DNA of 64,000 nucleotides from Chloroflexota bacterium (GTDB lineage: Bacteria > Chloroflexota > Anaerolineae > UBA1429), in the NCBI GenBank assembly GCA_019873625.1, contig JAIOAW010000001.1, positions 1 to 64,000 of the forward strand, written 5' to 3'. The notes under the pieces are model-generated. The model worked only from the letters and a program-made list of their open reading frames with translations, was not told where the DNA came from and made no database searches. Shown here piece after piece: positions 12,155 through 34,440 of the stretch; positions within the stretch are counted from its first letter, which is position 1; every line of letters starts with the position of its first letter. A program made the position numbers and the translations under genes.

Positions 12155-13041
12155 ACCGCTTTCATCACCAGGCCGAGGTTCACCATATATTCGGGCACGG
12201 GCAGTTCCTCTGGGCAGGGCAAAGGCGCCAGGGGGCGTTCTACAGGCCGATCCATCGCGCCGCGAAAGCGCTCGATGGCCTCCCTCTGGCTGAGGAGCCT
12301 CCCCGTGAGGCAAACGGGCGTGTTCGCCTCGATGGGCGCTGTGGGGTGGCTATCGTTATAGAAATGGATGGTCTGGTTCAACTCGCTGACCAGGCGATCT
12401 ACCTTGGCGAGAGGCGAAAGGGCCGGGTTCACGGTGAAGGTGCGCATAATGGCGGGCAGGTAATCCACCACCAAGATGAGGTCGAGCATATCCTGCTCCA
12501 GGTTGACGATGACGGCCTCCTCTCGGCTCACGGCGCGCACCAGGGCAAGCGGCTTGAGGTCCAACGCCTGCAAGGGGATGCCCGCCGCCTGAAAAGTGCG
12601 ATACAGGGCATCCACCAAGTCCCTCGGCACGCCCAAAAGGTAGATGCGCTGTTGATCTCCGGTGGAGGGCAGGCTCTGCCAAGAGAGATAGAGGTTTTCG
12701 AGCGATACGGGCATCTCGCGTTTGGCCTCGCGCGAGATGGCCGCCTCCATCATCGAGGCCTGCAAGCGCGGCATCGTGAGCAAGCGCGGGATGGAGCGCA
12801 GCCCGCAGATGGCCGCCACCACGCGCCGCCGGTCGAGGTTCTCCCTCGCAAAGAGGCCTTCCAAGGCGCGGCCCACCTCCATCGGGTTTGTGATCAACCC
12901 TTCGCTCACCAACCCCGCGGCCAGGGGCGCGCTCCCCCAGCGGCTCACGCGGCCCTTTTGCAGGGCCAGGTAGCGGATATCCGTCGCCTCGATGACGATA
13001 GAGACGCAATCTTTGTATTGTGCTTTGCTCGAACGGGCCAT
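12151..13041 (-). CDS. pilM: PilM-like pilus assembly protein
   Basis: Actin-like fold features (SIVIEATDIRYLALQKG; AVIVNLEQDMLDLILVVDY) and position in the pil operon. Confidence 0.75.
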   Translation of the reverse strand: MARSSKAQYKDCVSIVIEATDIRYLALQKGRVSRWGSAPLAAGLVSEGLITNPMEVGRALEGLFARENLDRRRVVAAICGLRSIPRLLTMPRLQASMMEAAISREAKREMPVSLENLYLSWQSLPSTGDQQRIYLLGVPRDLVDALYRTFQAAGIPLQALDLKPLALVRAVSREEAVIVNLEQDMLDLILVVDYLPAIMRTFTVNPALSPLAKVDRLVSELNQTIHFYNDSHPTAPIEANTPVCLTGRLLSQREAIERFRGAMDRPVERPLAPLPCPEELPVPEYMVNLGLVMKAV

Positions 13042-13051
13042 CCTCTTTACC

Positions 13052-14332
13052 TCATGGGATGCATAATCTCATGCCCACGTAAATCGTCGCGCTCGTCAGG
13101 TGGTTGGCGGCCATCACATCGGCCACGGAGATGCCGTAGCGCCGGGCGATGCTGTAGAGCGTATCCCCGGCCTTGACGACGTACACGCCATGGGGGCACG
13201 GCGCCGGCCCCTGGCTCGGGCCGAGCCACACGCTGAGGGGCGGCCAGCCCTGCCAGCCCTCCGGCGGGATGATCAATCGCTGATAGACGTGCACGGTGTA
13301 CGTCGAGAGGTTGTTCGCCAGCATAAGCATAGGGAGGCTCACCTTATAATGCGTAGCGATGGAATAGAGCGTCTCTCCGGGCTGGACAATGTGGATGATC
13401 GGCCCCGGCTGGGCGCTGGAAGGGATGAACAGCGCCCGATAGGCCCAGATCACAGGGACCTTGAGGTTGTTGATGGCCATAATCGCCCAAACAGTGGTGT
13501 TATAGAGCCGCGCCAAGGAGTAGAGCGTCTCCCCAGGCTGGACGATATGAACAATCGGCCCCGGCGGTACCTGGCCGCTCGCGGGAATCCAGATGGTCTG
13601 CCCGGCGCGCAAGGCGGGGCTCATCATCCCGTTCATCTGCATAATAGCCTGCACCGTGGTGCCATACCGTTTGGCCAGGCTGTAGAGCGTATCTCCCTTT
13701 TGCACCACATATTGGAAGGGTTGGCTCACGGGCTGGGGCGTGATGGTAGGCGTGGGGAAAGGCGTCGGCCCCGGTGGGGACGTGGGCGTGCTCGTGGGCA
13801 CGGGGATGGTGCAGTAGCGCGCCACGGCCTCCAGCCCAAGGCGCGCCTCTTCGCCATCGGGCTTGATGAGAAGCGCCTGCCGGAACTGGCTGAGCGATTC
13901 GGTGCACCGCCCTTGGGTGAGGAGTTGCCAGCCGTAGTTGAGCAGGGCATAGTATTTTTTATTCTGAATATCGTCATACGTTGGGTTAATGGCGATGACT
14001 TGCTCGATGAGGTTCAGCGCGAGCGGCCAATCGCTGGCATGCCAGGCGGCGTCAATCTGGAGCATAAGTTGCGTCAGCCGTTCGGCCTGGGTGAGCGTGG
14101 CGGTGGGCGTTACCGTGGGTGTGGGGCTAACCCCCTGAGGCCGCACCGAAGGTATGCCGGCGCGCAAGGGCGCCTCGCGGGCCGAAACAGCCGCGGGTGC
14201 CCAGAAGCCCGCCGCCAAAAGGCAGGCCACCAGAAGGCCGAGCACAGCGCGCCGGCCTGCTCCGCCCCAGGCGGCCTTTCTTCCCTTCTTTTTAGCCCAG
14301 ATGCGCGTCCTCACAAGCGTGAACCCTCTCAC
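13052..14332 (-). CDS. Secreted LysM protein (TPR-like N-terminus plus four LysM domains), GTG start
   Basis: Four repeats of YVVQKGDTLYSLAKRYGTTVQAIMQMN...AGQTIWIP type; N-terminal signal; Pro/Thr linkers. Confidence 0.85.
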   Translation of the reverse strand: MRGFTLVRTRIWAKKKGRKAAWGGAGRRAVLGLLVACLLAAGFWAPAAVSAREAPLRAGIPSVRPQGVSPTPTVTPTATLTQAERLTQLMLQIDAAWHASDWPLALNLIEQVIAINPTYDDIQNKKYYALLNYGWQLLTQGRCTESLSQFRQALLIKPDGEEARLGLEAVARYCTIPVPTSTPTSPPGPTPFPTPTITPQPVSQPFQYVVQKGDTLYSLAKRYGTTVQAIMQMNGMMSPALRAGQTIWIPASGQVPPGPIVHIVQPGETLYSLARLYNTTVWAIMAINNLKVPVIWAYRALFIPSSAQPGPIIHIVQPGETLYSIATHYKVSLPMLMLANNLSTYTVHVYQRLIIPPEGWQGWPPLSVWLGPSQGPAPCPHGVYVVKAGDTLYSIARRYGISVADVMAANHLTSATIYVGMRLCIP

Positions 14333-15318
14333 GGCTTGGGCACGGGCACGCCGAGCGCCGTCAACTCGGCTAGGATGGTCGCATTGGCGGGGTCCAGCCG
14401 CAGCGCGGCCAAATATTGCTGGCGGGCCAAATCCACCTGGCCGGCCGCCGCCAAATCTCTGCCGTAGCGCGTATAGGCCTCCACCGTCATCTCGACGATA
14501 TCCGACCGCCCTGGGGCCAGGGCCAGCAAGCGTTCGCCATAGGCGATGGCCGTGGACCAATCTTGCGCGTGCCAAGCGCCCCACAGGGCCTGCTCATACC
14601 GAGAGACCTCGAGCGAAGCGTTCGCAGGGATGAGCCAGCCCCCAGGCGCGAGGCTCGCCGGCGAAGGCGTTGGCTGGAGCAGCGGTAAGGCGCCGAGGCC
14701 GGGCGCCGCACCGGGCACCTCAGCCGCCGGTTTGGGCGCCGGCGTCGCCGCCGTAAAGACCGTCAGGTTGATTTTGGCGGTCGAGGGGCCATCTCGCGCG
14801 ATGGCGAGGTTTTCAAAGACAAACGTCTTGAACGTGCTCTGGGTGATGGCCGCGAGGAACCGCAACAGGTCGGCAAAGGTCCCCTTCGCCTCGATGGCGT
14901 ACGTCTCGATGCCATAGGGCAAACTGACGGACGTTTGGCCGGGCGGGATGAGCGATTCCAGGCGCACCAGGTAGGTGTTGAACTGCATAGCGATGTTATA
15001 GTAACCGCTCAACTCCGTGCGCACCTGGGCCGGCGTGGGGAAATCGGCCAAGAGGGCCTGGGCCTCGGCCTGGAGAGAAGCCAATTGATCGCGAAGGGCC
15101 TGCGGCCCCTGCACGCGCAGTTTTTCCACCTGGGCGATGCTCGCCTGTGTGACCTCCAATTGCGATTGCATACTGGCGCGTTCGCTTTGCGCCCCCTGCC
15201 ACTGGAAGGCCCCCCACGCGCACGCAACCAAGCCGAGAACGGCCACCACCACGCCAAGGGCATTCTTAGCCCCGCCCAGCCGGATGCGCCCAAAAATCTC
15301 GCTCACGTCTCTGTTCAT
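14329..15318 (-). CDS. pilO: PilO-like protein with C-terminal TPR-like extension
   Basis: N-terminal TM plus coiled coil; SGYYNIAMQFNTYLVRLESLIP...YAIEAKGTFADLLRFLAAITQSTFKTFVFENLAI; C-terminal tetratricopeptide-like region. Confidence 0.75.
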   Translation of the reverse strand: MNRDVSEIFGRIRLGGAKNALGVVVAVLGLVACAWGAFQWQGAQSERASMQSQLEVTQASIAQVEKLRVQGPQALRDQLASLQAEAQALLADFPTPAQVRTELSGYYNIAMQFNTYLVRLESLIPPGQTSVSLPYGIETYAIEAKGTFADLLRFLAAITQSTFKTFVFENLAIARDGPSTAKINLTVFTAATPAPKPAAEVPGAAPGLGALPLLQPTPSPASLAPGGWLIPANASLEVSRYEQALWGAWHAQDWSTAIAYGERLLALAPGRSDIVEMTVEAYTRYGRDLAAAGQVDLARQQYLAALRLDPANATILAELTALGVPVPKP

Positions 15319-18300
15319 GGTGTCACCGGCCTCATTCTCATAATGATCACAAAGCGCAGCACCTGGGCGCCGGGCGTCGGCGCTTGAAACTGCTGGCGTA
15401 GGAGCGGCTTATTCACGAGTATGCTGAGGTCCATTGGCCCCTCGGCCTCTCGCCGTGGCGCGGCAAGGGCGAAGCCCCGTGCGCTGGGCGTGCCCACGGG
15501 GGCGGGCACCGCATACACGATGGGCGAAGGCAATTCGTAGGCCCGGATGTAGTATTCCTTATCCGGCCCGAACAGCCCTCGGTTGTAAATGCCCACCGTC
15601 ACCTCGCCATCGGTCAGCGCGTCGAACTCGACGCGCGAGTTCTGATAGGGCGAACCGGGCAGGGCATCGTCGTTATTCAGGCTGCCCGGCCCCACGGGCG
15701 GCCCCGAAACGACGATCTCCGTATCCACACCGGGCATCAACGGCGCGCAACTGAGCCGCTCCGGGTCAAAGGGCGTGGTCGTGGTCACCACATAGTTGGG
15801 CGCAATCTCGTTGCCGCAGGTAAAGATGGTATAGCGCCGCCCCGCTTTGACCTTGACGAACACGCGGTCCCAATCGTTCACCGGGTGGAAGGTATGTCGC
15901 TGGCCCTCCCCCACCGAGAGGTAGCGGATGAGCACATCATCCGGCTCAAATGTGTCGCCGCTCACCGTGCCCAGGTCATCCACCTGGATTTTGTACGTCG
16001 CCCCCACCTCAAAGTAAGGCCCCTTGTTGAGCACGCGCACGTGGACGGTCTGCTCCGCGCCGGAATCGTTCTGAATTTCCAGGGCAGAGGAGAGATCGCC
16101 GGGGTACCGATCGTCATTCTGCCAGGTGAAGGAGGCCATCGTCCCTTCCAAGACGGTATCCACCCCCGGCGCGAGATCGGTGGTCTGTACCAGGTAACGG
16201 TGCCCAGGCTTGGCCGTAAAGTAGACGCGATCCACATCGCCCGACGGGAAGAAGACCCTCTCCTGCGGCGCGCCCATCGCGATGGGCACGCCCGCCGCAT
16301 CATCCGGCTCATAGGCGTCGTTGGCGTTCACGCCCGTCACGCTAAAGGTATAGGTCTTGCCCGCGCCGTAAAACCCCTTGTTGCGGATGGTTACAAATAC
16401 GGGCTGTTCGTTAGGCAGGTTGTTCACCAGATGAATCCGCGAACTGGGGTCCTGCGGGGCGCGGTCATCGTTCACATAGAGGTCCGCGCCCAATTGCGCC
16501 TCGAGGATCGTATCCACCCCCAGGGCCAGGTTGATCGTCTCGATGTTATAGGCATAGCCGGGCTTGGCCGTAAAGACCACCCGATCCACATCGCCCGCTA
16601 GGCAAAAGTTGCGTTCCTGCACCTCGCCCACGGCCATCATCCGCCCGGTGGCGTCATCCGGCTCGTAGGCATCGCGGCAATCGGGCGTGGGCGTGGCTGT
16701 GGGGATGAGGATGCCCGCCGTCACCTTGATGGAATATGCCGCCTCCGGCCCGAACTGTTCGCGGTTTTCCACCGTGATGGAGGCCTTGCCATCGCGCCGC
16801 GCGGTGGAGGTGAGGAGCGAGGCCGGGTTGCCCGGCGCGGCATCGTCATTGTAGTAACTGCGTCCATCCACCACCACGGTCAGGGCCGTATCCACCCCCA
16901 CGGAGAGGTTATACGTCTTGACCTCATAGGTCACGCCGCCTTTGACGTTGAATTCCAGACGGTCCACATCGCCGGGCGGGTAAAAGGTGTGGCGCTGTTC
17001 CTCGCCGGGCGAGATGGCGCGCGGCGAAAAGTCATCCGGCTCATAAAGGTCGCCGCCCACCTCGCGCACCTGGAGTTTGTAGGCCATATCAATGCCGTAA
17101 AGGCCCTTGTTCGTAATGTTCACCGAGGCCGTGTCATCCAGGATGGCCTTGAACTCCACTCGCGAGGAAGCGTCTCCCGTGGCCACGTCATCGTTCGTAT
17201 AGACCTGCCCGCCGAGGAACACGGTAACCACCGTATCCACGCCCGTGGCCAGGTCCGTCGTGCGCACCTCATAGGCGCGCCCCGCCTTCACGGGGAAACT
17301 GACGCGGTCAATATCCCCATAGGGGTAAAAGGTGCGCTCCTGCACCTCGCCCACGGCCATCGGCCGGGGGACGAGATCATCGCGCTCATAGGCGTCTCCG
17401 GCCACCTCCAGCACCTGGAGGACGTACCACTGCGTGGGGCCGTATTGGTCTCGGTTCGAGATGCGCACGTACACCTGCTGATCCGTGGGCATAGGCACCT
17501 GCACCTCGACGAGCGAGGCCAAGGCCCCCGCGCCCTCCGCCGAGGGGCAACGGCAGGCCAAAAGCCCTGGGTCGCCAGGGCGGCAATCGTCATTGGCATA
17601 GTGCGCGCCGGCCACGCTCACCTCGAGGAAGGTATCCACCCCATAGTGCTGAGGGATGGCCTGGATGCAGTAACGCCGCCCCGCCTTGCCCAAGAAGGTC
17701 GCCGTATCCACATCGTAGATGGGGTTAAAGTTGCGGTTTTGCGTCTCACCGATGGAGACGGGCTTCGGGTCAAAATCGTCTATCTCATAATTGTCATAGG
17801 CCTGAATGGTGGGCGTGGCTGTGGGGCCAGTAGGGGTGGTGGTGGCCGTGACGGTGGGTGTGCGCGTGGGCGTGATGGTGGCCGTGGGCGTGGCCGTGGG
17901 CGTGTAGAACGGCTCGCCGGCGACCTGGAGAGATTGGATGGCCACCTCCTCAAAGGCGCCGGAGCGATCGAGGGCGCTGGCATAACTCAGCACGTCATCG
18001 CGGCTGAGGCTGAGGCCGGTAAGCGTCAACTCGTTGCCGTTCTGGTAAAGTTCATCCAAGCGGATGCGTTCGGGGTTGTAGGCGAGCATCGCGTTCAGGG
18101 CGGGCGCCCAATTGCGCTGCCCTCCGAGGGCCGTCTCGTGCGCGGCGCGCAGGGCCTCGAGCACCTCAAGGGTCTGCGAAATCTGCTCGGTGAGGGTAAT
18201 GGCCTCCGCCGCGGGGGTGCGCAGGGCGATGAGCGTCTTTTGTGCGCTGGCCACCGAGGTGCGCAACTCGCGCACCTGGTTCTTGGTGCCGGCGGTAAAG

Positions 18301-18440
18301 GCCCAGAGGGGGATTGCCCCAATCACAAGGCATATGCCCACCACCCAGAGGATTTTATAAATGGGCGAGACGACACGCGGCCGATAGGCGGGAGGCAGAA
18401 TGTTCAGGTCAATCGGCCCTACGGGTTGATCGTTTGGCAT
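15315..18440 (-). CDS. pilN: PilN-like protein with six tandem PPC-like repeats
   Basis: N-terminus MPNDQPVGPIDLNILPPAYRPR + TM + coiled coil + LTLTGLSLSRDDVLSYASALDRSGAFEEVAIQSL; then six DxYEPDDF...GEVQERTFYPPGDVDRVxFxVKAGxxYEVxTxxLxxGVDTxL...NDD repeats. Confidence 0.85.
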   Translation of the reverse strand: MPNDQPVGPIDLNILPPAYRPRVVSPIYKILWVVGICLVIGAIPLWAFTAGTKNQVRELRTSVASAQKTLIALRTPAAEAITLTEQISQTLEVLEALRAAHETALGGQRNWAPALNAMLAYNPERIRLDELYQNGNELTLTGLSLSRDDVLSYASALDRSGAFEEVAIQSLQVAGEPFYTPTATPTATITPTRTPTVTATTTPTGPTATPTIQAYDNYEIDDFDPKPVSIGETQNRNFNPIYDVDTATFLGKAGRRYCIQAIPQHYGVDTFLEVSVAGAHYANDDCRPGDPGLLACRCPSAEGAGALASLVEVQVPMPTDQQVYVRISNRDQYGPTQWYVLQVLEVAGDAYERDDLVPRPMAVGEVQERTFYPYGDIDRVSFPVKAGRAYEVRTTDLATGVDTVVTVFLGGQVYTNDDVATGDASSRVEFKAILDDTASVNITNKGLYGIDMAYKLQVREVGGDLYEPDDFSPRAISPGEEQRHTFYPPGDVDRLEFNVKGGVTYEVKTYNLSVGVDTALTVVVDGRSYYNDDAAPGNPASLLTSTARRDGKASITVENREQFGPEAAYSIKVTAGILIPTATPTPDCRDAYEPDDATGRMMAVGEVQERNFCLAGDVDRVVFTAKPGYAYNIETINLALGVDTILEAQLGADLYVNDDRAPQDPSSRIHLVNNLPNEQPVFVTIRNKGFYGAGKTYTFSVTGVNANDAYEPDDAAGVPIAMGAPQERVFFPSGDVDRVYFTAKPGHRYLVQTTDLAPGVDTVLEGTMASFTWQNDDRYPGDLSSALEIQNDSGAEQTVHVRVLNKGPYFEVGATYKIQVDDLGTVSGDTFEPDDVLIRYLSVGEGQRHTFHPVNDWDRVFVKVKAGRRYTIFTCGNEIAPNYVVTTTTPFDPERLSCAPLMPGVDTEIVVSGPPVGPGSLNNDDALPGSPYQNSRVEFDALTDGEVTVGIYNRGLFGPDKEYYIRAYELPSPIVYAVPAPVGTPSARGFALAAPRREAEGPMDLSILVNKPLLRQQFQAPTPGAQVLRFVIIMRMRPVTP

Positions 18441-18640: not shown

Positions 18641-19792
18641 TTATTCTGACCACCATGCCGAGATGGTGGGGATATTATCCTCGCAGTAGCGCACGCGCGC
18701 CACCGCCACGCGCCCCCGAGAGGTGGAACGGATATCGTAGATGCTGCACGTTTCGGGGGCCGTCATATTAAAGGGCACCTCGGTGTACAAGGTGTTTTTG
18801 GAGACGAAAATCGTGTTCGCCACAAAAGCGCCTACGAAACTCGTCTTGTTCCCGGCGAGGTTGATGGTGCCGTTCGGGGCATAGACTACGCCTGCTGTGC
18901 TCTGGAACTTGTTGGAATCAATATAGATGGCATTCGCCGCGGTCGAGGTCGAAAAGAGCACGAGGCCCGGCACATAAGGGGTAACCAAATTATCTTGGTT
19001 CGCCGTTTGGCTGAACCGGATCGTCCCCAGGGCCGCGATGGTTACCTTATCCCACACCACCTTGTTGCTGCTGATGACCACATTGCCCGTGGCATAGTGC
19101 AGGCCAGAAGGCAAATCCTCCTTCTTGCTGGGCGCCCAATTTCCCGCATGAAAGTAATATTTCCCTTCGGCAGTCGCCTTGGCCGCCCACGTTCCCCCTG
19201 GCTGAAAATCGGCGATATTCCACGAGACGGGCCACTCCTCGGTAAGCCCTTCAATCGTCTCGCCGGTAATGGTTACGTTACTCCCGTTGATCTCCACATC
19301 GCTGCCCGCGCTCACCGTGCCCGTGATGTGCGTGTTATTCCCATCAATGGTCACATCGCCGTTAGCGTGCACGCCGCCATCCACGGTGGTGTTGTTCCCT
19401 TCGATGATCACTTGGCTGCCCGCCCACATCGCCCAGGGCCAGGGCACCGGGTTGACGAGCACGGCCTCCACCGTGGGGGTGATGGCGTTCACCGGGCCGG
19501 GGATATCCGTGATGGTCAGCGGCGTGCCGCGTTGGTCAAGCAGGGCCTTGCGAAGGTTCATATCCACCTTGAGGCGCTGGATGACGTACTCGATGGCGGC
19601 ATCGTTCGTGTAGCGCGCCTCCAGCACGCTCCGGTACATCTGCGCCGTGGCATGGCGCGAGAGCATAAAGCGCAAAAGCGGGATGAGCAAAAAGGTGCCG
19701 ATCATCACGGCCACCAGAGCAAAGGGCAGGCTCACGCCCCGCTCACCGCGTGCTCGTTCCCCCTCGCTCCGCCGAAGGTATCCTAGACTCAT
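18641..19792 (-). CDS. PilX-like pilus-associated protein with bactofilin/beta-helix-like central region
   Basis: GVSLPFALVAVMIGTFLLIPLLRFML; repeats GGVHANGDVTIDGNNTHITGTVSAGSDVEINGSNVTITGE. Confidence 0.6.
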   Translation of the reverse strand: MSLGYLRRSEGERARGERGVSLPFALVAVMIGTFLLIPLLRFMLSRHATAQMYRSVLEARYTNDAAIEYVIQRLKVDMNLRKALLDQRGTPLTITDIPGPVNAITPTVEAVLVNPVPWPWAMWAGSQVIIEGNNTTVDGGVHANGDVTIDGNNTHITGTVSAGSDVEINGSNVTITGETIEGLTEEWPVSWNIADFQPGGTWAAKATAEGKYYFHAGNWAPSKKEDLPSGLHYATGNVVISSNKVVWDKVTIAALGTIRFSQTANQDNLVTPYVPGLVLFSTSTAANAIYIDSNKFQSTAGVVYAPNGTINLAGNKTSFVGAFVANTIFVSKNTLYTEVPFNMTAPETCSIYDIRSTSRGRVAVARVRYCEDNIPTISAWWSE

Positions 19793-19801
19793 CTTTCCCT
19801 C

Positions 19802-20335
19802 CTAATCTGAGGGCCGCCGTTCGAAAACCAGGTTGGCCGATTGCGTCTGCGCCCCCACGGTTACAGTAATTTCCACCCACACGGTAGAGGTTACCGTGCG
19901 CGAAGGGCCAAAACTGAGGCCCGCGATGTGATCCGAAAGCAAGCGCTCGCCAGCCCCGTCGTTGCGCGTGAGCCGGCCCGTGGCGTTCTCCCCCGCCGTA
20001 TAAGTGTAGGTTACAAAGATGGGCGGCGGTACAGTCGGCTCGGCAAACGTCTGCGGCGTGACGTGCGGAATGCGCAAGGCCAACTGCGCGCCCGCCGTGC
20101 TCGTGATGACCCGCCCGCTCGCGGCGGCGATGATATCGTGGTTCATCAGGGTAGAGATGTTCTCCAACTCGGCCCCCGCGCTAAAGGAATGCTGATAGTC
20201 CCTCGTGATGCGGGCGAACTGATAGATGGCCACCCCGAACGTGCCCAGGAGAAGGCCCGAAATGGCCACGGCGATCAAGATTTCGACGAGGGTAAACCCC
20301 CTGCCTTTCTCAACCGAAGGCCTGGCCCCGCTCAT
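19802..20335 (-). CDS. Minor prepilin (PilW-like)
   Basis: GFTLVEILIAVAISGLLLGTFGVAIYQFARI. Confidence 0.8.
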   Translation of the reverse strand: MSGARPSVEKGRGFTLVEILIAVAISGLLLGTFGVAIYQFARITRDYQHSFSAGAELENISTLMNHDIIAAASGRVITSTAGAQLALRIPHVTPQTFAEPTVPPPIFVTYTYTAGENATGRLTRNDGAGERLLSDHIAGLSFGPSRTVTSTVWVEITVTVGAQTQSANLVFERRPSD

Positions 20336-20766
20336 GGCCGATTCCCCTTGTAACTTTGGAGTTGAAAGGCCGGCTCAAAGGGGCTGAGCGCACTATACAC
20401 GACCACGGTGATCTCCTGCAAGCCCTGATCGGTCTCCTCCGTGGGCACCGTGGTCGTGAAGGTAGGAGAAATCCAATACCGTACGCCCACCGTCACGGTC
20501 AGGTAACTCGGCACGGCGATGGTGGGGTAAGGTTCCGCCGTGGGGTTCACGCGGTAGGGCGCCGCTTTGACGGCCTCCATCTGGGTGCGGGCGTAATTTT
20601 CGGCCGCCACGTGCTCGCGCATAGCCACCACGCCCGCGCCAGCCGTCGAGATGCCGCTCAAAAGGAGCACGATGACCGTGGCGATGATGGCCAGCGCGAT
20701 CAATTCGCTAACCAGGGCCGCACCTCGCGCCCTCGCGCCCACCGCAGACCTCCCCCATCCCCTCAT
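20332..20766 (-). CDS. Minor prepilin-like protein (PilV-like position)
   Basis: RGAALVSELIALAIIATVIVLLLSG; overlapping ATGA junctions with its neighbours. Confidence 0.6.
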   Translation of the reverse strand: MRGWGRSAVGARARGAALVSELIALAIIATVIVLLLSGISTAGAGVVAMREHVAAENYARTQMEAVKAAPYRVNPTAEPYPTIAVPSYLTVTVGVRYWISPTFTTTVPTEETDQGLQEITVVVYSALSPFEPAFQLQSYKGNRP

Positions 20767-21962
20767 TGGATGGACCCCATCAGCGAGTACATCGGCATAA
20801 TGACGGAGACGGCCACAAACCCCACGAGTGCGCCGATAAAGATCGTGAGCGCCGGCTCCAGGGCGCTCGTCATCGCCGAGACGGCGCGATCCACCTCTTC
20901 TTCGTAGAAATTGGCCAACGTCTCCATATTCGAGTCAAGCGAACCCGTCTCCTCGCCCACGCGCACCATTTGGACGAGCATCGCGGGGAAGATCTTGCGC
21001 TGCGCCAAGGGCGCCGAAAGGCCATGCCCTTGGAGCAACTCGCTATGCACATCCGTCAAGGCTTTGCGGATGATGCGGTTGCCCTGCGTGCGGATGACCA
21101 TCTCGATGATTTCGGGCAGGGCGATGCCTGCCTGAAGGAGCGAGGAAATGGAACGGCACATCCGCGCCACGGCCCCCTCGATGATCACCCGCCCCAAAAG
21201 GGGCACCTTGAGGAGCAGCCCGTCAAACAGGACGTGGCCGGATTCGGTTCGTAAGATGAGCATAAAGAGCACGATGGCCCCCACCAGCCCGCCGAGGATA
21301 TAAAACTTGTAGGTCGAAAAGAACTTGGTGATGGCGATGAGAATCTTGGTGGGGAGGGGCAGGTCGGCCCCGAAGGAGAGGAACATCTCCATCAGGGGCG
21401 GGAGCGCCACCGTCAAGAGCAAAAAGACCACGCCGATGGCCAAGATGAGCACGAAGGAAGGATAGGCCATAGCCCCGCGCACCTTGCGCACCAGGTTCTC
21501 TTCCTTTTCGAGGTAGGTGGCCAGTTGGCGCAGGACCATCTCCAGGTTGCCGGCGCGTTCGCCGATTTCGATGAGGCGGGGGTAGAGCGCCGGAAAGGCC
21601 CGTTCGTGCTTCGCGATCGCTTCGGAAAGGAAGCGCCCTTGCTGAACATCCGTCGTGATCTCGGTCAGGATGCGCGCAAACCGCTTATCGCGCACCTGCT
21701 CTTTGAGCAAAAAGAGCGCCCGCACGATGGGGATGCCCGATTCGATGAGCGTGGCCAACTGCCGCGAGAAGACGATGAGATCCCGCGTGCGGATGCGCCC
21801 GCCAAAGAGCGGCGCCGACGCGCGCCGCGCCACCTCGTGCAGAGAGACGACCGTAAGATTCTGCCGCCAAAGGATTTCCTCGGCGGCAGATTCGTTCGGC
21901 GCCTCCAACACGCCCTGCACCCTTCGTCCATCGTTGGTAAAGGCCACATAACGGTACGCCAT
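20763..21962 (-). CDS. pilC: Type IV pilus inner-membrane platform protein
   Basis: RDLIVFSRQLATLIESGIPIVRAL...SEAIAKHERAFPALYPRLIEIGERAGNLEMVLRQLATYLEKEE. Confidence 0.95.
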   Translation of the reverse strand: MAYRYVAFTNDGRRVQGVLEAPNESAAEEILWRQNLTVVSLHEVARRASAPLFGGRIRTRDLIVFSRQLATLIESGIPIVRALFLLKEQVRDKRFARILTEITTDVQQGRFLSEAIAKHERAFPALYPRLIEIGERAGNLEMVLRQLATYLEKEENLVRKVRGAMAYPSFVLILAIGVVFLLLTVALPPLMEMFLSFGADLPLPTKILIAITKFFSTYKFYILGGLVGAIVLFMLILRTESGHVLFDGLLLKVPLLGRVIIEGAVARMCRSISSLLQAGIALPEIIEMVIRTQGNRIIRKALTDVHSELLQGHGLSAPLAQRKIFPAMLVQMVRVGEETGSLDSNMETLANFYEEEVDRAVSAMTSALEPALTIFIGALVGFVAVSVIMPMYSLMGSIQ

Positions 21963-22000
21963 CCTGAGATGCACCCTCCCAACCTTCGAGACGGATCTCC

Positions 22001-23920
22001 CTAATAGAGCGCAAAGACCTTCTTGAGCACCTCGGTGGGCGTGGTGATGCCCATTTTGGCCTTAAGCATGCCATCCTTGAGCATCGTGCGCATACCGGCC
22101 CGCAGGGCGGCCGCCTGGATATCATCGGAGTTGGCGTTGCGGAGCACCAGCCGGCGCAGTTCGTCGTTCATAATGAGGAGTTCCATCACGGCAATGCGCC
22201 CACGGTAGCCCGTGCCCGCGCAGTAACTGCAACCCCGGCCATATTCAAAGCGCGTGCGCGTTTCCCCCGTCTCTCGCTCATAGACAGCGCGTTCGGCATC
22301 GGGGATTTCGCGCTCCTCCCGGCAGTGATCGCACACGCGCCGCACCAGGCGCTGCGAGAGCACCGCCAAGAGCGAAGAGGTCACCAAGAACGGCTCGACG
22401 CCGAGGTCAATAAGCCGCAGGAGCGAGCCAACGGAGTCATTGGCGTGGATGGACGAAAAAACCAAGTGCCCCGTCAACGAGGCCTGCACGGCGGTGCTGG
22501 CCGTCTCTTGATCGCGGATCTCGCCCACCAGGATGATATCGGGGTCCAAACGCATAGCCGCCCGCAGGCCGCTGGCAAAGGTGATCCCCGCTTGGCGGTT
22601 CACTTGCACTTGGGTAATCCCCTCAAAGCGGTATTCCACCGGGTCTTCGATGGTGATAATCTTGTTCTCGTCGCGATCCAGTTGGTTCAGGCTGGCGTAG
22701 AGGGTGCTCGTCTTCCCGGAACCCGTGGGGCCGGAGACGAGGACGATCCCCCACGGCGCGTGGATGACCTTCTGATAGGCTTCCTGCATATCCGGCAAGA
22801 AGCCCAATTCATCCAGCGCCCGCACCGAGACGGATTTATCCAGCACGCGTAGGACGGCCATCTCGCCATAGATGCTGTTGATGGTGGCCACGCGGATATC
22901 CACCGGCCTGCCGCCCACCTCCACCGTGAATTGGCCATCTTGCGGGCGCCGCCGCTCGGCGATGTTCATATTCGCCAGGACCTTGATGCGCGAGAGGAGC
23001 GGCGCGTGCACGCGCAGGGGCAGGGACATCGTCTCGTGCAAGACGCCGTCAATGCGGTAACGGATGCGTAAATGCTTTTCTTGCGGTTCGATGTGGATAT
23101 CCGAGGCCTGATCGCGCACCGCCTGGTGGATCATCAATTGCACGGCCCGCGCGATGGGCGTCTGCGCCACGACCTCCGCCGAGAGCCGTTCGGCCGTATC
23201 GAAATCCACGTCCGTCGTGAGGGGCGTGATGCGCTCGATTTGCCGCTCGATCTCCAACTCGGCCTGATAGTAGCGCACGATGGCGCGCTCGATATCTTCG
23301 CTCGTGGCCCGCACCGGGCGGACGTTCAGCCCCGTGCGCACGCGCAGGTCTTCGATGGCATAGAGGTTCGTGGGGTCGGCCATCGCCACCACGAGGTAAC
23401 CATCTTCCACGCGCAAGGGGAGCAGCGTGTATTTGCGCGCCAGGTCTTCTGGCACCAGTTCGAGCGCCGACTGGCTGACCTCAAACCCCTTGAGGTCCAC
23501 AAGGGGCAAATCTACGCGGGTGCCGCTTTTGCGTTCGATCATCTCGATGACGGCGGCCACGTCGAACGGCTTATAGAGGATGCCATCCACCCCCGACCAG
23601 AGCGCCTCCGAGACGAATCCCTCCAATTTGCTGTGCCCCGTCATAATGAGCGTCATCACGCTGGGGTTCACCGCTTTGATCTGGTTGAGCGTCTCCACGC
23701 CGTTCATACCCGGCATCATAATGTCAATCATCACCAAATCGAAGCGGTTGCGCCGCAAGGCCTCCAGGGCCGTCTTGCCATCCTGGGCGATGGAGACGGC
23801 ATATCCCCGATCCTCGAGGATATCGCCGAGGGTCTCGCACATTTCCGGGTCATCATCCACGATGAGGATGTTCTTGATGGCCCGCTGCTTCAATTGGGTT
23901 TGCTGGATCGCTTCGTTCAT
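22001..23920 (-). CDS. pilB: Type IV pilus extension ATPase with N-terminal receiver (REC) domain
   Basis: REC: ILIVDDDPEMCETLGDILEDRG...LVMIDIMMPGMNG...LIMTGH...LYKPF; ATPase: VSGPTGSGKTSTLYASLN, ITIEDPVEYRFEGITQVQVN, LRLDPDIILVGEIRDQETAS; CDHC/CSYC zinc site. Confidence 0.95.
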   Translation of the reverse strand: MNEAIQQTQLKQRAIKNILIVDDDPEMCETLGDILEDRGYAVSIAQDGKTALEALRRNRFDLVMIDIMMPGMNGVETLNQIKAVNPSVMTLIMTGHSKLEGFVSEALWSGVDGILYKPFDVAAVIEMIERKSGTRVDLPLVDLKGFEVSQSALELVPEDLARKYTLLPLRVEDGYLVVAMADPTNLYAIEDLRVRTGLNVRPVRATSEDIERAIVRYYQAELEIERQIERITPLTTDVDFDTAERLSAEVVAQTPIARAVQLMIHQAVRDQASDIHIEPQEKHLRIRYRIDGVLHETMSLPLRVHAPLLSRIKVLANMNIAERRRPQDGQFTVEVGGRPVDIRVATINSIYGEMAVLRVLDKSVSVRALDELGFLPDMQEAYQKVIHAPWGIVLVSGPTGSGKTSTLYASLNQLDRDENKIITIEDPVEYRFEGITQVQVNRQAGITFASGLRAAMRLDPDIILVGEIRDQETASTAVQASLTGHLVFSSIHANDSVGSLLRLIDLGVEPFLVTSSLLAVLSQRLVRRVCDHCREEREIPDAERAVYERETGETRTRFEYGRGCSYCAGTGYRGRIAVMELLIMNDELRRLVLRNANSDDIQAAALRAGMRTMLKDGMLKAKMGITTPTEVLKKVFALY

Positions 23921-24031: not shown

Positions 24032-24442
24032 TTATGTAAAGTCTTGGCCCTCCGGGGCCGCCGACTTTTCCGCAAGCACCTCGCGGACGAGGGAGAGTAA
24101 GGCCGGCAAATCGAGCGGCTTATAGAGAATGGCGAGGACGTCTCCTCGCACGCCGGCCAATTCCTGGCCATCCGCATAGGCGGACATCAACACCACGTGC
24201 AGGCGCGGGGCCTCCCGCCGCATTATGCGCAGGGCCTGCAACCCATCGAGGACGGGCATCCGCACGTCCATCAATACCAAATCGTAGGCCACCTCCCGCG
24301 CCTTGCGCACGGCCTCTTCGCCGTTGGCCGCCTCATCCACCCGGCCAAAGTACTCCGCCAAAATATCCACCAGGGTGGTGCGCATCCCCTCTTCGTCATC
24401 CACCACCAGCAGGGCCGCTGGAGGGGGCATCTTCTTGGGCAT
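24032..24442 (-). CDS. Stand-alone response-regulator receiver protein
   Basis: LLVVDDEEGMRTTLVDILAEYFGRVDEAANGEEAVRKAREVAYDLVLMDVRMPVLDG...LYKPLDL. Confidence 0.9.
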   Translation of the reverse strand: MPKKMPPPAALLVVDDEEGMRTTLVDILAEYFGRVDEAANGEEAVRKAREVAYDLVLMDVRMPVLDGLQALRIMRREAPRLHVVLMSAYADGQELAGVRGDVLAILYKPLDLPALLSLVREVLAEKSAAPEGQDFT

Positions 24443-26075
24443 AGATCGTGACGCTCCTTGAGGTACCCTCTTCCTCTGAGAGAGGAATTTTGACGATGAA
24501 TTCGCTCCCCTGCCCCACCTGGCTGAATACCTCTATTTCGCCATGGTGGGCATCCACCAACAGTTTCACGATGGAAAGCCCCAAGCCAATGCCTTTGGCC
24601 TTGGTGGTAAAGAGCGGCTCAAAGATGCGCGGCAAATCCTCCGGGCGGATGCCCTCTCCCGTATCCTTGACGGAGAAACAGACCCATCCCCCGTCTTTGA
24701 ACGTGCTGATGACCACTTCGCCGCCCTCCGGCAGGGCTTGGATGGCGTTATTCAGGAGGTTCGTGAGGATTTGCTCCATCTTGCCCGCATCAAAGGGCGC
24801 GGCAGGCAAAGAAGGGTCGAGTTGCGTCTTGATGACGACGTTCTCGGGCACCTCAATTTTGTTCAGGACGCGCTCCACGAGCACGTTGGGGTCCAAGACC
24901 TCCTTTTCCACCTCTCGCACGCGCACAAAGTTCATCAAATCGGTGATGATCTTGTTGGCCGCACGCACCTCATGCTCGATGATATCGAGGTGTTTGGTGA
25001 TCTTGGGGTCCTCCTCGCCCAGGCGCATACGCAAAAAGTACACGGAATTGTTAATGACCCCCAACGGGTTGCGCAGTTCGTGGGCGATGCTCGCGCCAAG
25101 TTGGCCGACGGTCGCCAACCGTTCCGAGCGCAAAAGGCGCTGTTGGGTCTCCTCCAAGGCGCGGGTGCGCTCTTCGACGCGCCGCTCTAGTGCGCGGTTC
25201 CAATCCTCCAGCTTAGCCACTAGGCGGGCGTTCTCCACCAGGCCGGCCACCTGGCCGCTCAGGATGGTGAGCATCTCGATATCCACCGGGCGAAAGGTCC
25301 CCCGCCCTTGCCCCTTGGTGAGGAGCAAAATGCCCACATAGCGCCCCGGCGCGTGGAGCGGCGCACACAATACGGAACCCACCCCAGAGCGCTCAAAGGC
25401 CTCGCGAATGCCCAATTCCCCGGCCACCTTTTCATCCACGATAAAGGCCGCCTGCCGGTCGCGCGCGGCGCGGATGAGCGTGGCGCACTCTGGGCCGCAC
25501 CCCAGGTCTTCACCGACGAATGCCTCTTTGACAACGGTTTGATCGTCCTCTTCCAGAGAAAAGAGGGCCGCGCTACCCGCCTCCGCCTCTCTCAAGGCCA
25601 GGTTGAGCACCTCTTGATAAAAGGCGCCGAGATCAACGTGCTCCAGGCGCCGCTTGGCCAGTTCAAAGAGCGGCATCAAGACGCGCATCCGCGCCCGCTC
25701 TTGGGCTATGCGCACCTGGGCCAGGGCGCGGTCTACGGCGCTCTTGAGTTCGAGCGGCGTAAAGGGTTTAGGCAAAAAGTCCTGCGCGCCGCCGCGCAGG
25801 GCCTTGATGGCCAAATCAATGGACCCCACCCCCGTGATGACGATGACGACCAGTTCCGGCAGAATCTCGCGCGCCCTATTGAGGAGTTCGATGCCGTTCA
25901 TCCCCGGCATAGCGACGTCCGTCACGAGCACATCAAAGGCCCCGGCCCGGAGGAGCGCGAGCGCCTCCTCGCCGGAAGAGGCGCCCTGCGCCTCATACCC
26001 CATACGCGAGAGCGCCCGGGTGCAAAACATCAGGACGGTCGGCTCATCATCTACAACGAGGATGCGCTCTCCCAT
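24396..26075 (-). CDS. REC-GAF-HisKA-HATPase sensor histidine kinase
   Basis: REC ILVVDDEPTV...VTDVAMPGMNG...PKPF; H-box LGASIAHELRNPLGVINNSVYFL; N/G boxes LLNNAIQALPEGG, VKDTGEGIRPEDLPRIFEPLFTTKAKGIGLGL. Confidence 0.93.
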   Translation of the reverse strand: MGERILVVDDEPTVLMFCTRALSRMGYEAQGASSGEEALALLRAGAFDVLVTDVAMPGMNGIELLNRAREILPELVVIVITGVGSIDLAIKALRGGAQDFLPKPFTPLELKSAVDRALAQVRIAQERARMRVLMPLFELAKRRLEHVDLGAFYQEVLNLALREAEAGSAALFSLEEDDQTVVKEAFVGEDLGCGPECATLIRAARDRQAAFIVDEKVAGELGIREAFERSGVGSVLCAPLHAPGRYVGILLLTKGQGRGTFRPVDIEMLTILSGQVAGLVENARLVAKLEDWNRALERRVEERTRALEETQQRLLRSERLATVGQLGASIAHELRNPLGVINNSVYFLRMRLGEEDPKITKHLDIIEHEVRAANKIITDLMNFVRVREVEKEVLDPNVLVERVLNKIEVPENVVIKTQLDPSLPAAPFDAGKMEQILTNLLNNAIQALPEGGEVVISTFKDGGWVCFSVKDTGEGIRPEDLPRIFEPLFTTKAKGIGLGLSIVKLLVDAHHGEIEVFSQVGQGSEFIVKIPLSEEEGTSRSVTIYAQEDAPSSGPAGGG

Positions 26076-26078
26076 ACC

Positions 26079-27629
26079 TCACCCACCTATCTTTGAGAGA
26101 TCGTCCCTATCTCCGCGGGCCACCAGGTCGCACCAGGTTTGGGTGATGAAAGGATCCAACTGGCGGCCAGCCAAAGACCGCAAGCGTTCCAAGGCCTCTT
26201 CCGTCGAGAAGGCCGCACGGTAGGGGCGATCGGTCGTCAGGGCGTCGAAGGTATCCACCACGGCGATGATCCGCGCCCCCAGGGGGATGGCCTCCCCCGC
26301 CAACCCCTCGGGGTACCCCGAGCCGTCGTACGCCTCGTGATGATACTGCACAAGGGGGATAATCTCCCGGAAGGCAGGGATGCCGCTCAGAATCCGAGCG
26401 CCCATCACGGGGTGCAGTTTCACGCGGTCGAACTCATCCGGCGTCAAGGTGCCATTCTTGCGCAGGGTCGTATCGCCCACGCCGAGTTTTCCCAAATCGT
26501 GGAGCAAACCGCCCACGGCCAGCACTTCGAGCATACCGTTTCCTAGGCCCAGCGCCCGGCCCAACCGCTGCGCATAGCGGGAGACGTGCTCCGAATGGGC
26601 CTTGGTATATTCATCAAAAGTGCCCAGCGCCTCGACCAGGGCCTGCACCGCGGGGAGGCTCGCCTCCGTCAGCCCGCGGAAGGAATCCATCACGTGCTGG
26701 CGCGCCCGCGCATGCACCATAGCAATGGCGATCTGCGTGGCAAAGACGTGCAAAAGTTCGGCGTCGTCGCGCGTGTAAAAGGGCAAACCCGCCTTGCGAG
26801 CGATAGCCAGCGTCCCCGCCACCTCGTCGCCGCGCCAAAGGGGCACCGTGATGCTCGTGGCCACGTGAGGGCACGGCGTCTCGTCCATCCCGGCATTCCA
26901 GAGGATCCACGGCGCATTTTGCGCGGCCAAGGCCGCGATCTCCTCGCGCAGGAGATGCTTCCACGGCCAGCCATCCAACGGCTCCCCGCTTGTAACCACG
27001 AGCCTCCCCTCGGCCAGATGTTCATCCACAATCGAGATCTCGACGCGTGTGGGCGTAAAGGTGCGCTGGACGAGATCCATAATCGCATCGAGCATATCGG
27101 CGAGGTCCATCTCGCTCGAGAGGATGCGCCCCAGTTCGACCAAGGGAGCGATGGGCGAACGGAGCGCCTGCGCCCGTTGGGCGCGAGATTTAAAGATGCG
27201 CGCCACCTTTTGGCGCAGTTCGTAGATGTCGAACGGCTTGGTGAGGTAATCTATGGCGCCGCGCTGCATCGCCTGCACCGCGCTCTGGATGGTGCCGTAG
27301 GCCGTGAGGACGATGATATCCATATCGGGGTAGAGGGAGTGTACCTGTTCCAAGAGTTCCAGCCCGCCCATCTCGGGCATTTTGAGGTCGGTAATGACCA
27401 AGTCCGCAGGCTGCTCCCGCAGGCGCTGGAGGGCCTCCTTGCCGTTTGAGGCCTCATACAGCATATAGCCCTCGCGCTGAAGGACCTGCACGATGAGATG
27501 GCGCACATCCGGCAAGTCATCCACCACCAAAATGCGCCGAGATAAACCGCTCTCCTCCACCCTGCCCCCTTTCGTAGGTGAAACCTGCCGCGTGGCGACT
27601 TCTTGCAATTCTTCAAACGAAATCGGCAT
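26079..27629 (-). CDS. REC-GAF-HD-GYP response regulator (putative c-di-GMP phosphodiesterase)
   Basis: [16 protein letters not shown]...[11 protein letters not shown]...[23 protein letters not shown]...[42 protein letters not shown]. Confidence 0.93.
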
Positions 27630-30732: not shown

Positions 30733-33700
30733 ATGGCCTCAATCTATCGTCTATTTGCGGCCTCGCGCCGCAAGGGGTTGCCTTGGCTCTTTGGTGCGAT
30801 CTTGCTCATCGGCGCCTTTTGGGGGGTTACCCTCTGGCGCGCCCACAGCCTGGATGCTTATCTCCGCGAGATGCTCCTTTACCAGGCCAAGGCCCTCGCC
30901 CGAAACGTGGACCCCGCGTTGGTCCAAAGGCTCACCTTCACCCCCACCGATAAGGGCAACCCCGCTTACGAGCGCCTGCGCGCCCAGCTCACGGCCTATG
31001 GGCGCCTCATCCCCAACTGGGGCATTTACACGATGGCCCTGCGGGATGGGCAGATCGTCTTTGGGCCGGAGAACTATCCCGAAGGCGACCCGATGGCCTC
31101 CCCGCCGGGCACCGTGTATCAAGAACCGGCGCCGGAGGATTTCGCCATCTTTCAGACGGGCCAGCCGTGCACCATCGGCCCTGTGTCCGACGAATATGGC
31201 ACGTTCGTCTCGGCCCTCGCCCCCGTGTGGGACCCCGACACCGGCCAGGTGCTTATGGTCGTGGGGATTGATATCCTCGCGGAAGATTGGTTGGCCGAAA
31301 TCCATCGCGTGTACCGCCAGGCGCTGTGGGCGGCCTTGCCCATCCTCTTTTTGGTCGGCTGGTATGGGGCTGTGCATCTGTGGCGCCGGGGCGCCGCACG
31401 CCGGCCTTGGCTATCCCTTCCTCACCTGGAGGCCATTTTCACCGCGATGCTCGGCCTCTACCTCACGGGCTTGGCCGCTGCCTTGGGCAATGAATCTGAG
31501 CGCCTGAGCCACCAACGGTTCTTTCAAGAGTTGGCCCAAACGCGCCTGGCCGGCGTGCGCGCGGCGGTCGAAAGCGCCCAGCGAGACTTGGCCTCCATCG
31601 CGCGGTATTTCGAGAGCAGCGAGGATGTATCCCGCGAAGAGTTCGCCCGTTTTGCCGGCGAACTCGCCCGCAACACTGCGGTGGAGGCTTATTACTGGGC
31701 GCCCATTGTGCCAGCCCAACAAAGGGCCGCCCTAGAAGAAACTGCCCGGCGAGAGGGCCTTCAGAACTATGCCATCTGGGAGCGAAATGCCGCGTTGGAG
31801 CCGGTGCCTGCCTCTCCCAGAGAGGTGTATTACCCCATCTATTATGTGGAACCGCCGCCCATAGGGGTCTCTGCCTTGGGGTTTGACCTCGGTTCCGAGC
31901 CGCCGCACCGCGCTGCCCTGGAAGAAGCCTTGCGGACGGGCTTCCCCACGGCCACCGAGCCACTCACCCTCTTGAGCGAGCCGCGGGAGAGGCTGGGCGT
32001 CATCCTCCTGCAACCGACGACATCGGGCGGCGAACAGAGCGACGGCCTGGTGGGGGGCGTCTTACGCCTTCAAGGCTTACTCGAGGGCGCCCTACGCCCT
32101 TATTATGAGGTGCCCCCGCTCCTTGGGTTGGGCCTCTTGAGCCTAGAGCCGCAGACCACGCGCGTCCTGGCCGTGTACCCGCAGGAGCACCTCGCCGAGC
32201 ACCCCACGCTGACCACGGGGATGCAGTTGCGGGGGCCACTTTACGCCGTCCAGCCGCTCTTCATCGGGGGGCAGACCTTCCTCCTCAACGCGCGCCCCTC
32301 GAGCGCCTTTGAAGCCCTTCAGCCCCGCCGCGCCCCCTGGCTCATCGCCCTGGCTGGCCTGAGCCTGACCGCAATGCTGGCCACGATGGTGAGCCTTTTC
32401 CACCGTCGCGAACAGGCGCTTCAAGAGCAAGTGCGCGAGCGCACCATCGCCCTAGAGACGGCGCGCGACCGCGCCCAGGGCTACCTGGATGTGGCCGGCG
32501 TCATCCTCCTCCACATTGACCGCGAAGGGCGTGTAACGCTCATCAACCGCCGTGGGCTGGAGATTCTGGGCTGTCGTGCGGAGGAGGTCATCGGCAAAGT
32601 TTGGGTGGACCACTTTGTGCCGCCCGAAGAGCGCGAGGAGACGCGCCAAGTGCTCCAAGCCCTGCTCGAGGGGCGCGCCAACGCCGCCGCGTTCGAATAC
32701 CACGAAAACGCCATCCTCACCGCCCAAGGCGAGCGGCGCCTCATCGCCTGGCACAACATCCTCATCCGCGATCGGGAGGGGCGTTTTCAGGGCATCCTCT
32801 CCTCCGGCGAGGATATCACCGAGCGCCGCCGCGCCGAAGAGGCCCTCCGCGAGAGCGAGGAGCGCCATCGGCGCGTCTCGCAGATGATCTCCGATTACGC
32901 GTATGCCTACCGCGTTGAGCCGGATGGCACGCTCAACGTAGAGTGGGTCATCGGCGGGTTCGAGCGAACGACGGGGTTCACGCTGGAGGAATCCGAGGCG
33001 CGCGGCGGCTGGAGCGCGCTCATCTACCCGGAGGATATGCCCATCGCCCTGGAGCGCGCCAAACGACTCTTCTCCGGCCAGGCGGATGTGAGCGAGTTCC
33101 GCATCGTCCGCAAAGATGGCCAAATCCGCTGGCTGCGCGATTACGGCCAGCCCGAGTGGGATGCGCGCGAGGGCCGCGTGGTGCGCATCTACGGCGCGGC
33201 GGAGGATATCACCGAGCGCAAGCGCGCCGAAGAAGAGCGCCTGGAGATGGAGCGCCGGCTCTTGCAGGCCCAGCGTTTAGAGAGCCTCGGCGTGCTCGCC
33301 GGCGGCGTCGCCCACGATTTCAACAATCTCCTGATGGCCATTATGGGCAACCTGGAACTCGCCCTCCTCGACCTCCCGCGCACGTCAGGCATCCGCGCCA
33401 ACCTCCTCGAAGCCTCTCAGGCGGCGCGGCTTGCCGCCGACCTCACCCGGCAACTCCTGGCCTATGCCGGCAAGGGGCGCTTTACGCTGAGCCGCGTCAA
33501 CCTGAACGCGGTGGTCCAGGAAAATGCCCAACTCTTCCGCACGGCCATCCCCAGGGCGGTCACGCTGACGCTGAACCTAGCGCCGGATTTGCCCACCATC
33601 GAGGCCGACCGCAGCCAAATCCAACAGGTGATGATGAACCTCCTCACCAACGCGGCCGAGGCCATCGGTGAAAAGCCAGGGGCCATCACGCTCACCACGG

Positions 33701-34440
33701 GCGTGATAGAGGCCGATGCGGCGCTCCTTGCCCAGAGCCGCCTGCCGGAGGTACCCCCGCCGGGCCGTTACGTCTTTTTGGAGGTAACCGACACGGGCTG
33801 TGGGATGGACGAGGCGACCATCGAGCGCGTCTTTGAGCCGTTCTTTAGCACGAAATTCACCGGGCGGGGGCTGGGGATGTCTGCCGTGGCGGGCGTGGTG
33901 CGCGGCCACGGCGGCGCTATCTTTATCAAGAGCGCCATCGGTCAGGGCACCACGGTGCGCGTCCTCTTCCCGGCGGCCCAGGGCGAACCGCGTCCTCAGG
34001 AGCCGCGCGAGGCCGAAAGGCAAACCGCCTCGGCCACCGGCGGAGAGAAGACCTCTCGCGGCCTAGCCTTGGTGGTGGATGACGAACCCTCCGTGCGCCA
34101 AGTGGCCGAACTGATGTTCCGGCGGATGGGCTTCCAGGCCTTTTCAGCAGCGAGCGGCCCAGAGGCCCTCGAGTTCCTCCGCCGCCACGGGCCGGTCCGC
34201 ATCGTCCTCCTCGACCTTTCGATGCCGGGGATGGACGGCCTCACGGCCCTCGCCGAGATGCGCCGCCTGGTGCCGGATATCCGGGTCATCCTCTCCAGCG
34301 GCTACAACGAGCAGGCCATCTCTCAGCGCCTGACGGGCCAAGGCGAGGTGGAGTTCATCCAAAAACCGTTCGATTTCGCCGCGCTGCGCGAGGCGGTGGA
34401 GCGCGCCCTAGGCCAGGCCCAAGGAGGCGCGGAGGCATAA
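30733..34440 (+). CDS. Hybrid sensor histidine kinase: two extracellular sensor regions (second CHASE-like), PAS-PAS, HisKA-HATPase, REC
   Basis: LGVLAGGVAHDFNNLLMAIMGNLELAL; two PAS/PAC ending GEDITERRRAEEAL / AEDITERKRAEEERL; C-terminal ALVVDDEPSVRQV...LLDLSMPGMDG...QKPFDFAAL. Confidence 0.95.
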   Translation: MASIYRLFAASRRKGLPWLFGAILLIGAFWGVTLWRAHSLDAYLREMLLYQAKALARNVDPALVQRLTFTPTDKGNPAYERLRAQLTAYGRLIPNWGIYTMALRDGQIVFGPENYPEGDPMASPPGTVYQEPAPEDFAIFQTGQPCTIGPVSDEYGTFVSALAPVWDPDTGQVLMVVGIDILAEDWLAEIHRVYRQALWAALPILFLVGWYGAVHLWRRGAARRPWLSLPHLEAIFTAMLGLYLTGLAAALGNESERLSHQRFFQELAQTRLAGVRAAVESAQRDLASIARYFESSEDVSREEFARFAGELARNTAVEAYYWAPIVPAQQRAALEETARREGLQNYAIWERNAALEPVPASPREVYYPIYYVEPPPIGVSALGFDLGSEPPHRAALEEALRTGFPTATEPLTLLSEPRERLGVILLQPTTSGGEQSDGLVGGVLRLQGLLEGALRPYYEVPPLLGLGLLSLEPQTTRVLAVYPQEHLAEHPTLTTGMQLRGPLYAVQPLFIGGQTFLLNARPSSAFEALQPRRAPWLIALAGLSLTAMLATMVSLFHRREQALQEQVRERTIALETARDRAQGYLDVAGVILLHIDREGRVTLINRRGLEILGCRAEEVIGKVWVDHFVPPEEREETRQVLQALLEGRANAAAFEYHENAILTAQGERRLIAWHNILIRDREGRFQGILSSGEDITERRRAEEALRESEERHRRVSQMISDYAYAYRVEPDGTLNVEWVIGGFERTTGFTLEESEARGGWSALIYPEDMPIALERAKRLFSGQADVSEFRIVRKDGQIRWLRDYGQPEWDAREGRVVRIYGAAEDITERKRAEEERLEMERRLLQAQRLESLGVLAGGVAHDFNNLLMAIMGNLELALLDLPRTSGIRANLLEASQAARLAADLTRQLLAYAGKGRFTLSRVNLNAVVQENAQLFRTAIPRAVTLTLNLAPDLPTIEADRSQIQQVMMNLLTNAAEAIGEKPGAITLTTGVIEADAALLAQSRLPEVPPPGRYVFLEVTDTGCGMDEATIERVFEPFFSTKFTGRGLGMSAVAGVVRGHGGAIFIKSAIGQGTTVRVLFPAAQGEPRPQEPREAERQTASATGGEKTSRGLALVVDDEPSVRQVAELMFRRMGFQAFSAASGPEALEFLRRHGPVRIVLLDLSMPGMDGLTALAEMRRLVPDIRVILSSGYNEQAISQRLTGQGEVEFIQKPFDFAALREAVERALGQAQGGAEA

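Follow-up and report, generated by a model that had tools for sequence, protein, structure and literature searches.

A two-component receiver where the N-domain normally binds c-di-GMP in a type IV pilus extension motor of Anaerolineae, with a proposed role in motor regulation

The window, a stretch of 64,000 nucleotides from an Anaerolineae genome, carries a full type IV pilus cluster with all of its pilus genes on the minus strand. The extension motor, designated here REC-PilB, is encoded at 22001–23920 (−), and the whole span is a single frame of 639 residues with no internal stop. Next to it lie the platform protein PilC (20763–21974, −; T2SSF E = 1e-55) and three minor-pilin-like genes (20332–20766, 19802–20335, and 18641–19792, spanning 18641–20766, −), which show an N_methyl match for 19802–20335, tight gene order, and homologues in relatives. 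A PilN-like protein of 1041 residues (15315–18440, −; PilN E = 1.4e-6) is extended by PPC-like repeats (DAYEPDD...; PPC E = 2.5e-5, just under the cut-off). Several such repeats are unusual for a PilN, and a homologue of 1094 residues was found in genome G012. The cluster continues with a TPR protein in the position of PilO (14329–15318, −; TPR by Pfam, PilO by position only), PilM (12151–13041, −; PilM_2 E = 1.7e-10), the prepilin peptidase PilD (11318–12313, −; identified by reading the sequence, the listed start being probably too early), the retraction ATPase PilT (10192–11295, −; T2SSE E = 1.7e-49), and a major-pilin-like protein (GFTLIELLIVLAILAIL; 9519–9989, −; N_methyl E = 9.9e-11).

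The pilus cluster is located directly downstream of a two-component cluster that encodes a REC-GAF-HD-GYP protein, a REC-GAF-kinase, and a stand-alone REC. Counting the motor, this amounts to four receivers, three of them in separate proteins. The stand-alone REC (24032–24442, −; 136 residues, Pfam E = 2.4e-21) directly precedes REC-PilB, and the 111-bp gap between them allows separate transcription of the motor gene. The REC-GAF-HisKA-HATPase kinase (24396–26075, −; recognized by Pfam and by synteny in relatives) is a candidate phosphodonor, its putative partnership with REC-PilB being assigned from the neighborhood only. The REC-GAF-HD-GYP protein (26079–27629, −; HD_5 E = 6.9e-38) is a probable c-di-GMP phosphodiesterase, the translation of which contains the HDxGK motif as HDLGK together with the HHExxDGxGYP motif. 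Similar genes accompany the motor in relatives: the G011 locus keeps the REC-GAF-kinase, the stand-alone REC, and an OmpR-type regulator; HD-GYP and an OmpR-type regulator occur in both G012 and G006, with a REC-kinase in G012; and the upstream genes of G072 and G099 encode a double-receiver protein and kinases. The window also encodes a hybrid kinase of 1235 residues (CHASE-PAS-PAS-HATPase-REC; 30733–34440, +) outside the pilus cluster.

Domain analysis of REC-PilB yielded a receiver at residues 18–128 (23537–23869, −; Pfam Response_reg E = 2.3e-29), MshEN_C at residues 137–222 (23255–23512, −; Pfam MshEN PF05157 E = 1.2e-24), and the T2SSE ATPase core at residues 253–632 (22025–23164, −; Pfam E = 6.2e-126). 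The receiver profile (PF00072) scored 102.2 bits against a cut-off of 30.2, and the receiver contains an acidic pair (D22/D23), a phospho-acceptor (D66, in MIDIMMPG), T94 (LIMTG), and K117 (LYKPF). The codons of the last three are at 23723–23725, 23639–23641, and 23570–23572 (−), respectively. The ATPase core is complete, with Walker A (GPTGSGKT, 397–404), the catalytic Glu (E467), the His box (489–495), and zinc cysteines at 530/533/564/567. AlphaFold modeling of residues 1–235 (mean pLDDT 76) returned the (beta-alpha)5 fold of a receiver and the MshEN_C fold, joined by a linker of low confidence at 132–137; the full-length model (mean pLDDT 50.5) was too weak to be used for the ATPase. The original prediction, made by reading the sequence, had placed a complete phospho-receiver in the first ~130 residues and had the protein enter the N-domain at its C-terminal half, and both points agree with the Pfam matches and the modeled fold.

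REC-PilB is the only extension ATPase of the genome, the other member of the motor family being one PilT-type ATPase. It scored below the curated cut-offs of both the PilB equivalog TIGR02538 from NCBIfam (534.8 vs. 675.65) and the GspE equivalog TIGR02533 (565.5 vs. 630.25). The name PilB therefore reflects the genomic context and not the equivalog status: PilC, PilM, PilN, the pilins, and a separate PilT are all nearby, which is the setting of a PilB/GspE extension ATPase.

In MshE of V. cholerae, MshEN_N holds c-di-GMP with two motifs of 24 residues each (Arg9–Gln32 and Arg38–Gln61); MshEN_N by itself (residues 1–62) is no weaker a binder of the messenger than the complete domain. The MshEN_C part comprises residues 65–145 (PMC5013675). 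As a control, we inspected the Chloroflexota PilB L112, in which PF05157 matches only residues 80–166 and two motif-like segments precede residue 80. By this comparison, the Pfam MshEN model corresponds to MshEN_C and leaves out the c-di-GMP-binding half. We therefore rejected the PF05157 match as an intact MshEN domain between the receiver and the ATPase core, since the model covers MshEN_C only. The earlier reading had reported no upstream RLGxxLxxxG-type segments, and a search of REC-PilB for the RLGxx...Q c-di-GMP motif, in strict or relaxed form, likewise found none; of the features of an MshEN c-di-GMP receptor, the MshEN_C subdomain is present and the MshEN_N motif pair is missing. Helix alpha5 of the receiver ends at ~130 and MshEN_C starts at ~137–140, so the linker of ~9 residues leaves no room for the four-helix bundle. 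Sequence searches aligned REC-PilB residue 137 with residue 81 of Geobacter PilB, and residue 136 with residue 57 of M. xanthus PilB, indicating that the receiver replaces ~55–80 N-terminal residues of a normal PilB. Judged from sequence and predicted structure, MshEN_N is absent from REC-PilB and the receiver is in its place.

We found an extension-type ATPase in 16 of 396 Anaerolineae genomes, and half of these (8/16) have REC-PilB, in a total of 10 copies. G072 and G099 contribute two copies each; in G006, the copy is broken across contigs. This survey of fusions in Chloroflexota, which had been proposed as a check, revealed the same replacement of MshEN_N by REC in every copy; no further REC-PilB was found in 399 genomes across the phylum. 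A joining of a REC gene to pilB through an assembly or gene-call error has a negligible probability, as the same junction recurs in single open frames in the 8 genomes, which belong to several genera, and the stretch between the domains lacks an internal start that has an evident ribosome site. The artefact was refuted by the independent genomes with the same fusion, and REC and PilB can be regarded as one gene, as originally assumed. In the motor tree, the REC-PilBs form one side of a branch with a support of 63/94. This support is modest, and the fusion is probably of single origin. As neighboring lineages of the tree have MshEN_N, the change probably ran in the direction of replacement.

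Outside the phylum, no profile match over the REC part was observed among the matches listed for 198 genomes of the G741 phylum, 120 of G743, and 150 of G742. The profile-start criterion alone would miss REC motors of the G742 phylum, and a sample of long ORFs from this phylum was read as well. These included motors with a REC-MshEN_N-MshEN_C-ATPase order (L192 and L195–L197) and one with a degenerate REC (L198). We dropped the idea that the fusion is unique to Anaerolineae, because REC precedes MshEN_N in these ORFs. They resemble REC-PilB in having an N-terminal receiver on an extension-type ATPase, but there the receiver was added through a long linker before a retained MshEN_N-like segment, whereas REC-PilB has no MshEN_N. 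Receiver–motor fusions thus arose at least twice, once by addition and once by replacement.

Across the 10 copies from 8 genomes, 26 of the 112 REC positions do not vary, and D22, D23, D66, and K117 are among them. The chance of all four named sites being invariant is ~0.003 if positions are taken as exchangeable. The switch Thr (T94) is Thr or Ser in 7/10 copies; G004 and G006 have Ala at this site, and G012 has Val. As far as residue identity can tell, the phosphorylation chemistry is conserved in the REC-PilB copies, and the Thr coupling is not universal. In G072, a second REC-PilB (L109; L171:9056–10906) stands in tandem with the intact copy and has GPPNSGKT instead of GPTGSGKT at Walker A; it may contribute a non-catalytic subunit to a mixed hexamer. 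In G036, a gene upstream of REC-PilB (L169:4221–5258) encodes a stand-alone receiver that runs into ~30 residues from the start of MshEN_C; it is probably what is left of a tandem REC-PilB after truncation.

The G161 motor (L101; L174:4641–6608), also from Anaerolineae, provided a further arrangement. Profile comparison aligned it with REC-MshEN_C over the whole alignment at 99.7% probability, and joining it to the REC-PilB group was not rejected (p-AU 0.53). Its receiver-like domain has 21% identity to the REC part of REC-PilB from the window and receives no Pfam receiver call; the five key sites read G, A, Y, P, and L. From its alignment and position, we take this domain to be a pseudo-receiver. 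As in REC-PilB, a receiver-like fold replaces MshEN_N, but all of the catalytic residues are gone, so the receiver fold can persist for another reason, e.g., docking.

The closest non-REC motors of Anaerolineae (L099, L100, and L102–L104) have MshEN_N without the RLG...Q residues, and other near relatives (L110–L113) keep one near-complete c-di-GMP motif. Given the degraded motifs in the nearest MshEN_N motors, the replaced part may already have ceased to work as a sensor. GGDEF matches in the genomes with degraded MshEN_N (G023, G035, G139, G180, and G258) are weak and partial (E = 1e-12 at best); degraded MshEN_N coincides with the lack of a strong GGDEF, as if the site had decayed with the messenger. 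Two loci with such degraded motors (L176:6973–8550 and L178:736–1815) have a receiver gene just upstream of pilB, in which a CpaE/TadZ-like C-terminal part was recognized by eye and Pfam sees the receiver only.

These motors bear on the history of the replacement. The sensing of c-di-GMP may have been lost first, with the receiver filling a slot that no longer sensed; this order of events would change the history and is compatible with a receiver-regulated motor. Motors such as L099, L100, and L102–L104, in genomes whose GGDEF matches are weak and partial, speak for it, but the near-complete motif kept in L110–L113 and the strong GGDEF match found in every REC-PilB genome (1–5 matches in all) run against it, and we consider it a tentative possibility that we lean against. 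Loss of the messenger itself as the cause of the receiver takeover was rejected for the REC-PilB genomes on account of these strong matches. In the present genome, one strong GGDEF protein and the HD-GYP protein of the cluster, with its catalytic motif, indicate that c-di-GMP signaling is not gone.

With the above results in hand, we propose that the extension motor of this Anaerolineae type IV pilus is regulated via its N-terminal receiver instead of c-di-GMP, and give this reading a probability of roughly 0.55. A receiver in the sole motor suggests that pilus extension may be under the direct control of a sensor kinase. The neighboring REC-GAF kinase, either directly or via the stand-alone REC, would phosphorylate D66. 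The phosphorylated receiver, present in six copies per hexamer, could then alter the packing of the N-domain ring on the ATPase or its docking to the stator (PilM/N), and this change would turn extension on or off. Such phospho-gating would fit the intact receiver, the kinase cluster next door, and the invariance of the Asp pair, Asp, and Lys over 10 copies. The original prediction had inferred direct gating of extension by phosphotransfer, with the second-messenger sensor swapped for a receiver. For the domain, the swap held across the clade, as REC replaces MshEN_N; for the signal, the word "swapped" is not yet justified. That the clade exchanged a second-messenger input for direct phosphotransfer to the hexameric motor, with no transcription, c-di-GMP, or adaptor involved, is a proposal to which we assign slightly less than even odds.

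Phosphorylation of D66 ranks as the most likely reading, and in its main rival the receiver works chiefly as a module for docking or localization, which took over the stator- or pole-binding of N1 and for which phosphorylation is secondary or vestigial. The loss of T94 in three genomes and the complete loss of the active site in G161 weaken the gating reading and favor docking, as do the degenerate receiver in the REC motor L198 of another phylum and FimX, which acts on PilB with a receiver lacking the Asp (PMC11656802). Pure docking, however, does not need the Asp pair, the phospho-acceptor Asp, and the Lys, and the invariance of these catalytic residues in 10/10 copies favors phospho-gating; kinase genes also adjoin REC-PilB. 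On balance, we regard docking as the main role as rather unlikely. A different reading follows from the four receivers of the cluster, several of which compete for the same phosphoryl groups and reduce the weight of the gating reading: the motor-borne receiver might be a phosphate sink or feedback element of the neighboring phosphorelay, leaving motor activity unaffected. The stand-alone REC could already fill that role, however, and the fusion to the sole motor was retained in 8 genomes, which makes a sink very improbable.

For a motor that bears its own receiver, regulated as proposed above, the link from chemosensory or two-component signals to the pilus motor would become testable with a kinase and a single purified protein. 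MshE and the MshEN-type PilBs (V. cholerae MshE, M. xanthus PilB, and C. perfringens PilB2) share MshEN_C, T2SSE, and the extension role with REC-PilB, but have their own c-di-GMP-binding MshEN_N where REC-PilB has the receiver (PMC5013675; PMC11656802). Bd2402 of Bdellovibrio also combines REC and MshEN in one protein; compared by its description, and motor domain aside, it is an MshEN response regulator that binds c-di-GMP tightly (PMC5013675). In the PilB-PilZ-FimX system of Xanthomonas, PilB itself does not bind c-di-GMP and is governed by a receiver-bearing partner; the FimX receiver acts in trans and lacks the Asp, whereas that of REC-PilB is in cis and intact (PMC11656802; PMC10333796). 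PilG and PilH of the Pil-Chp system likewise exert receiver control over extension, but as separate single-domain proteins. They affect PilB localization, but no reported interaction links them to PilB (PMC11656802). The passages found in a recent review of PilB describe no receiver in it (PMC11656802). Our literature search for REC fused to PilB returned only a general remark on the combination of MshEN with REC (PMC5013675), and an earlier listing among response-regulator outputs is possible; as far as we searched, an intact receiver replacing MshEN_N in a sole extension motor is undescribed.

The N1 domain of PilB is the site of c-di-GMP action and probably a stator contact too (PMC11656802). 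Our results indicate that the N1 slot is exchangeable: in Chloroflexota alone, it is filled by MshEN_N (degraded in some motors), by a receiver or pseudo-receiver, or by a pair of restriction-endonuclease-like domains, and some motors have nothing recognizable there. The last type, with nothing recognizable before MshEN_C, was observed in L117, L118, L120, and L125. The restriction-endonuclease-like domain pair takes the place of MshEN_N in the Dehalococcoidia-like PilBs L116, L119, and L122–L136. In L116, this region matched Mrr_cat with E = 7e-10 and, more weakly, a Pfam family of inactive REase-like domains.
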